Shown one piece after another: positions 3,340 to 10,042 of a stretch of DNA of 17,155 nucleotides. The first letter of the stretch is position 1. Every line of letters starts with the position of its first letter. The stretch is taken from contig JAGCRL010000022.1 in assembly GCA_017964705.1 (NCBI GenBank), positions 1 through 17,155 on the forward strand, read 5' to 3'. Position numbers and translations under genes: made by a program. The notes under the pieces were generated by a model. The model was not told the origin of the DNA. It saw nothing but the letters and a program-made list of their open reading frames with translations, and searched no databases. The DNA comes from Alphaproteobacteria bacterium (lineage in GTDB: Bacteria; Pseudomonadota; Alphaproteobacteria; RF32; CAG-239).

Positions 3340-3474
3340 TTAAGCAGAAAGCTTTTTACGGCCTCTAGCACGACGAGCAGCTAAAACCTTACGACCGCCG
3401 GCAGTAGCCATACGCGTACGAAAGCCATGACGACGAGCTCTAACAAGCTTACTAGGTTGATAAGTTCTTTTCAT
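3340..3474 (-). CDS. rpmH: 50S ribosomal protein L34
   Basis: This 44-residue, very basic protein starts [18 protein letters not shown] and ends [12 protein letters not shown], which is the L34 sequence throughout. L34 is a small protein of the large ribosomal subunit. The ATG at 3474 has a GGAG ribosome site 7 bases upstream. It is the first gene of rpmH-rnpA-yidD-yidC-engB, with rnpA starting 11 bases after its TAA. A strong sigma-70-type promoter lies at 3541-3569, and the roughly 60-base leader contains a small hairpin. It is below common ORF length cutoffs and easily missed. Confidence 0.98.
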
Positions 3475-3634: not shown

Positions 3635-3666
3635 ATACATGTATTTTGGAGGTTTACGTTCTTGCC

Positions 3667-4023
3667 ATGATTATAGACAGCAAAAATGAAACACAAAAAA
3701 GTATTTTAACAAATAAATGTTTTTATCAAACAACGGCACAGATAATGCATGAGTTTGAGAAGAAAGGCTATGCCAATTCGGCAGATGAGACAGCAAAAGT
3801 AATTGCGGCCTATCATAATGTTGTTCAAAAAAAAGCCAAAAATAATTTCAGTAAAGATTATAACGAAGCATTTAAGAAAATTGATGAAGCTATTAAAAGT
3901 TTAGCTAATAAAGTTTTTTATAGCTATGATAAAAAAAGTTTGGATTATGCATATAAGTCTTTTGCAGAGTTTGATTATATTAATGCGATCATTGGTCGTC
4001 AACGCACTAAGAAAAGTTCATAA
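3667..4023 (+). CDS. Small soluble helical protein of unknown function
   Basis: I do not recognise this protein. From the ATG at 3667 it has 118 residues (MIIDSKNETQ...). The same frame could also start at a TTG (3646), but that TTG overlaps the only ribosome site (GGAGG 3648-3652), so the ATG is preferred although its 14-base spacing is long. The sequence is Lys- and Ala-rich and reads as several amphipathic helices (for example DETAKVIAAYHNVVQKKAKN and YNEAFKKIDEAIKSLANKVF). It has no signal peptide, membrane segment or Cys cluster (one Cys). It has its own promoter, and gpsA follows about 100 bases later with a possible separate -10. Codon use resembles the neighbours, so it is probably a native lineage-specific gene. 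Confidence 0.7.
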   Translation: MIIDSKNETQKSILTNKCFYQTTAQIMHEFEKKGYANSADETAKVIAAYHNVVQKKAKNNFSKDYNEAFKKIDEAIKSLANKVFYSYDKKSLDYAYKSFAEFDYINAIIGRQRTKKSS

Positions 4024-6337: not shown

Positions 6338-7456
6338 TTAAATTCTCATTGGCATCAGAACATAAATGGCGCTATTATCAGATGTGTCATTAATCACAGT
6401 TGCAGCGGCGCTGCTGGATAAACTGAAACGAACATGTTCACCTTTAATTTGCGCCAAAATATCCAACAGATAACGGAAGTTATAGCCGGTATCAATTGAT
6501 TCCTTATCATATTTGGCTTCCAACTCCTCTGTTGCATTGCCGAGCTCAGCATTAGACGCTGCAATTGTAACATGATTTTTATCTGTAATCAAACGAATGC
6601 CACGGCTTCTTTCCGTTACAACAGAAACTCGATCAACAGCAGTAGCCAAATCTTTTACATTAACTTCCAAAATTTTATCATTATCTGTCGGAATAACACG
6701 CTCATAATCAGGGAAAGTTCCATCAATCAACTTTGAAGTCAATGTAATATCTTCAAAAGAAATACGTACTTTGTTTTCCGAAAGAGCCATAGAAACGTTG
6801 TCTATAGAGGCATCATCCAGCAATTTACGAATTTCTAAAACAGATTTTCTCGGAATAATCACACCTTCTAATTTTTCGGCACCAGCCGGCAAAGGAGATT
6901 CTGCACAAGCGAGGCGATGTCCGTCTGTTGCTACAACGCGCAAGACCTTTGTCTCACCTTCTGTTTTAGCGTGAACATAAAGACCATTCAAATAATAACG
7001 AGCCTCTTCAACCGAAGCTGAAAACTGCGTGCGATCTATAAGAGTTTTCAATTCATCTTTGCTAATTTCAAAATTAATAGGCAAATCATCACCGGAAATC
7101 AAAGGAAAATCCTCAACTCCGATAGTAGAAAGTGAAAAGTTAGAACGACCGGAAGCAATTGTCAAAGCACCCTTATCATTAGGATATGTTAATTCAACAT
7201 CAGATCCATCGGCAAGCTTTCTAACAATATCATAAAGCATATGAGCCGGAGCTGTTGTGGCACCTTCTTCTGTAATTTTAGCTTCTACAAGCTCCGTAAT
7301 TTCAATATCCATATCGGTTGCTTTGAAATTAATCATATTGTCCTTTGCTTCAATTCGAACATTAGATAATACTGGAATAGTATTTCTTTTCTCAACAATG
7401 CTCTATACATGGCTGAGAGTCTTTAAAAAATTTGCACGCTCAATTGTAAATTTCAT
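6338..7456 (-). CDS. dnaN: DNA polymerase III beta sliding clamp, with an in-frame amber codon at position 18
   Basis: The beta clamp encircles DNA and tethers replicative polymerase. The natural start is the ATG at 7456 (MKFTIERANFLKTLSHV), with an AGGA ribosome site 9 bases upstream. From there the gene has 373 codons including the stop, the normal alphaproteobacterial length. Codon 18 (7405-7403) is TAG, exactly where family members carry Gln in LSHVQSxVERRNTIP; the frame then continues SIVEKRNTIPVLSNV. The first ATG after the amber is at 7336 (Met41, MINFKATDMDIEI), preceded by AAGGA at close spacing, giving an uninterrupted 332-residue product. That product lacks the first part of clamp domain I. 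The rest is conserved, ending YVLMPMRI. Sequence error, amber suppression or re-initiation are the options. recF follows with zero spacing. Confidence 0.93.
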
Positions 7457-7469
7457 TATTTTTTATCCT

Positions 7470-9670: not shown

Positions 9671-10042
9671 TTAATTTTTACTTTTGATATTGACAGCAAT
9701 TTTTAGAGGGCGTGATTGTTGTTTCGAAATCTCCAGAACATCATTATCTCTTAAGAATACTAGAGAGGATTCTGTTGAGTTTCTGAGTTTCCATCCAAGC
9801 TTAGGTAAAACATCTATATAGAAGTATTTAATTTTTTCAAAGCTCTCTTTTTTATTAGCTACCAAAATAGCTTCTGTATAACCGGCTTCTTCGTTACTGA
9901 AAGAAAAATTTTGGCTTTCAATTTGTTTCAATCCGTTCATTAAAGGGATATCCTCAAATCCCTCGATAAAGTTACTTCCTAAGGCACATAAAGGGAAGAG
10001 CTGAAGAATCAAAAATGTAAATATATATAAAGTCTTTCGCAA
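9671..10042 (-). CDS. Small exported protein of unknown function, TTG start
   Basis: This 123-residue protein starts with TTG at 10042. GGAG lies 8 bases upstream, directly after the mutM stop (TAAGGAG), and the first in-frame ATG would remove the signal sequence, so the TTG is preferred. Residues 1-22 form a signal peptide: MRK, a hydrophobic run (TLYIFTFLILQLFPLCALG), then SNF. The Cys is not in a proper lipobox, so cleavage by signal peptidase I is more likely than lipidation. The mature part is a small mixed domain with FEDIPLMNGLKQIESQNFSF near the start and YFYIDVLPKLGWKL in the middle. It would act in the periplasm or envelope. It starts 12 bases after mutM and is probably cotranscribed with it. 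I do not know its role. Confidence 0.85.
   Translation of the reverse strand: MRKTLYIFTFLILQLFPLCALGSNFIEGFEDIPLMNGLKQIESQNFSFSNEEAGYTEAILVANKKESFEKIKYFYIDVLPKLGWKLRNSTESSLVFLRDNDVLEISKQQSRPLKIAVNIKSKN

Follow-up and report, generated by a model that had tools for sequence, protein, structure and literature searches.

The in-frame TAG in dnaN of a draft alphaproteobacterial genome is most likely an error of the draft assembly

The beta sliding clamp gene dnaN of this draft genome is interrupted at codon 18 by an in-frame TAG. We conclude that the draft assembly very probably has a wrong base here, because other conserved genes of this draft, including rpsL, are also interrupted by in-frame stops, and all three stop codons occur among them. 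The window (the whole stretch of DNA that was analyzed, 17,155 nucleotides) is one contig, number 40, of a draft assembly that comprises 283 contigs and 1,228,036 bases and has an estimated completeness of 81.87% and contamination of 3.15%. The records nearest to this draft are mostly labeled as metagenome bins, and two are from animal colon; the window's draft is probably a metagenome bin as well. It is called G000 below, and the congener used for comparison as its closest relative is called G013.

On the minus strand of the window dnaA, dnaN, and recF lie adjacent in series. The coordinates of dnaN and of the other features discussed are collected in Table 1. From its ATG the dnaN frame runs for 17 codons to the TAG and is then open from codon 19 through the terminal TAA. 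The initial annotation had described the gene in this way, with an AGGA before the start and an intact downstream part, and its coordinates and description were correct. The match to the PF00712 profile covered 119 of 120 profile positions and ran through the stop, with one TAG within it, and residues 41–372 scored 267.7 against NCBIfam TIGR00663 (cut-off 137.65). The gene matches the DnaN profile over its length, and there is no uninterrupted dnaN frame from the usual start. Compared with G013, 18 of the 20 residues before the TAG and all 20 after it were identical; judged from this alignment, the TAG sits within conserved coding sequence. It is genuinely present in the assembled sequence, and a search of the assembly for a second, intact dnaN gave only this one match. 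Elsewhere in the window, a 44-residue frame (3340–3474, minus strand) upstream of rnpA resembles by eye rpmH, encoding ribosomal protein L34, and is too short to have entered the ORF list. Two further frames, of 125 residues (3646–4023, plus strand) and 123 residues (9671–10042, minus strand), had no Pfam match at an E-value of 0.001.

Table 1. Positions of dnaN features in the window and of in-frame stops elsewhere in G000 and G013
Feature	Position	Strand or genome	Basis
dnaN (beta sliding clamp), interrupted at codon 18	6338..7456	-	Frame reading; PF00712; TIGR00663
In-frame TAG, codon 18 of dnaN	7403..7405	-	Gln in the 109 other loci compared
AGGA preceding the dnaN ATG at 7456	7466..7469	-	Sequence
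ATG, codon 41 of dnaN, proposed restart	7334..7336	-	Met in 3 of 110 loci, 0 of 16 congener loci (L003–L018)
AAGGA, 4 bases upstream of dnaN codon 41	7341..7345	-	Sequence
rpsL (ribosomal protein S12), TGA at Arg codon	L227:4245 (G000 contig 56), also L264	-	
ppdK, in-frame TGA	L148:9235	G000	
PseC-like aminotransferase, in-frame TAA	L171:1648	G000	
BamB-like protein, in-frame TAG	L230:4241	G000	
RmlB-like dehydratase, in-frame TAA	L160:257	G000	
dnaE, in-frame TAA (intact in the window's genome)	L203:12935	G013	
engB, in-frame TAA (intact in the window's genome)	L187:3481	G013	

The codon normally found at this position was expected to be CAG or CAA, and relatives agree. In a codon-by-codon comparison of 110 dnaN loci, which includes some genomes twice, codon 18 was Gln in all 109 other loci (75 CAG and 34 CAA) and TAG only in the window's own. 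Searches of genome collections holding one genome per species gave the same picture: dnaN was matched in 53 of 57 related genomes, with a stop within the match in the window's genome alone, and a family-wide search with dnaN domain I matched 142 of 152 genomes, the only stop among the matches listed, which extend into the weak ones below the cut-off, being the window's own. The best protein representative of the clamp was 93% identical (among the matches listed, 120 of 8,000). The stop is therefore private to one assembly among the genomes compared, and it is the sole private change in dnaN at a residue invariant in the genus.

If the dnaN stop reflected some special biology of TAG, the rest of the draft would be expected to be clean or to be broken by TAG alone. 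For this comparison we took contigs 1–39 and 41–61, chosen by numerical order and not by content, together with the window (61 contigs, 263,019 bases in all), and compared them with 60 stretches of G013 (968,287 bases). A stop was counted as internal when at least 12 of the 20 residues on each side were identical. G000 had eight internal stops within 32,054 aligned residues. Two of these, in L151 and L135, were not counted as clear on account of the poor alignment around them. The remaining six comprised two TAG (replacing Gln and Trp), two TGA (both replacing Arg), and two TAA (replacing Lys and Asp). They lie in dnaN, rpsL, ppdK, and genes for a PseC-like aminotransferase, a BamB-like protein, and an RmlB-like dehydratase; the PseC and BamB names rest on profile scores below their cut-offs. 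Confidence is lowest for the RmlB-like stop, located 257 bases from a contig end; at this position the protein of another congener, G005, likewise has Asp. The same criterion discarded 13 of 21 stop marks in G000 and 21 of 24 in G013 as lying in poorly matching stretches, most of those in G000 being at alignment ends. No match in the G000–G013 comparison was split in the manner of a frameshift.

One of these breaks is in rpsL, which is essential. The G000 genome has one rpsL match, with one TGA inside it. Among the 16 genus genomes searched, 12 had a match, the other 11 were without a stop, and all 11 of these loci had an Arg codon at the position of the TGA. A TGA is not read by a TAG suppressor. 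Similarly, ppdK carries one TGA in G000 and no stop in 13 congeners with a strong match spanning the position. The same type of break thus occurs in other essential genes of the draft, with no preference for one stop codon. The reverse comparison covered 31,836 residues of G013 and gave three stop marks. Those in dnaE and engB are clear; the third, in L249, was not counted as clear because it lies near the gene start. Such breaks are therefore confined neither to dnaN nor to TAG. In G005, a small sample of 6,278 residues was free of internal stops, which indicates that drafts of the genus differ in this respect.

We also examined whether G000 carries an excess of amino acid substitutions. Nonsense changes make up 4.3% of all single substitutions in the three genes dnaN, dnaA, and recF of the window; at that share, six of them would correspond to roughly 140 erroneous bases in 96 kb, or about 7 extra missense changes per 2,109 genus-invariant residues. 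Private missense changes at genus-invariant residues numbered 23 of 2,109 in G000, 20 of 2,061 in G013, and 30 of 2,113 in G005; the test is a weak one, and the range among congeners was from 0 of 2,039 (G011) to 87 of 1,408 (G007). The missense load of G000 is not raised, a result that neither shows nor excludes such errors.

Three readings of the dnaN stop had been offered at the outset: a consensus error, a suppressed amber, and re-initiation at Met41. The stops of all three kinds in other conserved genes favor the first, and the other two were not supported. That a real amber is read as an amino acid through a suppressor tRNA or leaky termination, giving a full-length clamp, is quite improbable. 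The TAG does stand at a Gln codon with conserved sequence on either side, and Belinky et al. (2021; PMC7918605) have proposed that in-frame stops can be read through in prokaryotes; however, TGA or TAA accounts for four of the six clear stops, and an amber suppressor does not explain such a mixture. Among 20 tRNA hits in G000, 19 were typed and none of these had a CUA anticodon, in a tRNA set that is incomplete; a pattern search for CUA loops gave six matches, compared with nine for the reversed control. No tRNA-Gln was found in the G000 assembly, so that an altered one could escape view, whereas 14 of the 15 other congeners searched had tRNA-Gln, all with the anticodon CTG; it is this difference that marks the tRNA set of the assembly as incomplete. 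One tRNA-like sequence on G000 contig 65 (L131:1501–1586, minus strand) was considered as a suppressor and rejected, since its anticodon loop, read by hand, is not a normal CUA loop. It scored 40.7 bits against RF00005 and was left untyped by ARAGORN, and a default scan of the entire locus listed nothing. This tRNA-like gene, with its odd anticodon arm, adjoins a long frame that resembles by eye a phage-type DNA polymerase. Against suppression it also counts that TAG is an ordinary terminator in this genome: at 70 ortholog ends located where the congener's gene ends, G000 had 54 TAA, 12 TAG, and 4 TGA. These 12 ends bear equally on genome-wide reading of TAG as Gln, which the initial annotation had considered unlikely because gpsA and rpsT end in TAG; its judgment was sound. 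Nothing but the dnaN stop speaks for such recoding, the second clear TAG stands in place of Trp and not of Gln, and we give the idea practically no credence. We consider highly improbable a broader form of readthrough, in which termination in the species is so unusually leaky that in-frame stops of all three kinds are tolerated in essential genes and both the clamp and S12 are produced by reading through them.

Restart at Met41, with the cell living on a 332-residue clamp, draws on features that are indeed in the sequence, as had been reported: codon 41 is ATG and is preceded by the AAGGA. Like the stop, this ATG is private within the genus. Codon 41 is highly variable, however (Ala, Val, Ser, Thr, Cys, and others), so we do not read the private Met as an adaptation, and two distant loci have Met there without a preceding stop. 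No clamp beginning at Met41 was found among the relatives compared, and the other congener loci carry residues 1–40 without a stop; in the window, codons 19–40 still encode conserved clamp sequence. In a structural model of the clamp (21 aligned sequences, mean pLDDT 86.4), a strand (residues 2–6), a helix (7–18), a short helix (28–31), and a second strand (32–38) precede residue 41. A review describes the inner ring of the clamp dimer as built of its twelve helices (PMC11139829). On the model, a product restarted at Met41 would lack the first strand and helix, and a clamp of this kind is unlikely; that the cell subsists on one seems very remote. The TAG might instead be a genuine mutation carried by some of the sampled cells, which either are dying or survive thanks to an intact copy elsewhere, with the variant chosen by the assembler. 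In favor of this, it is one substitution away from the relatives' codon, but the assembly gave no second dnaN match, and the explanation would have to extend to rpsL and the other genes. We regard this as improbable.

A draft error remains the simplest account of the dnaN stop. The TAG may have arisen as a sequencing or consensus error, or as a rare read variant picked at low coverage, and a single technical cause may well lie behind all of the in-frame stops in G000. Spurious in-frame stops do occur in draft genomes. The G000 stops resemble them in being scattered, private, of all three codons, in essential genes, and in a fragmented draft; they differ in that the missense load is not raised, and a technical cause would here be deduced from the pattern of the stops. 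A Gln-inserting amber suppressor tRNA would suit a TAG at a Gln position, but no CUA tRNA was seen in the incomplete set, and TGA and TAA break other genes. A precedent for restart is the beta* form of the Escherichia coli clamp, a short product begun at an internal start in dnaN. It is made alongside the full clamp and is not known to replace it, and its start lies much further in. The readthrough stops described by Belinky et al. (2021; PMC7918605) likewise lie within conserved coding genes. According to their description, stops common to at least two species were kept in order to minimize artifacts; the dnaN stop, present in 1 of the 53 genomes with a match, would fail that filter.

If the dnaN stop were real, this organism would need suppression or restart to make its clamp. 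That would be remarkable, but the evidence does not call for it. A broken essential gene in a draft looks striking, and the background rate of breaks in the remainder of the draft should be read first. The living organism would, by our preferred explanation of a draft error, make an ordinary full-length clamp.
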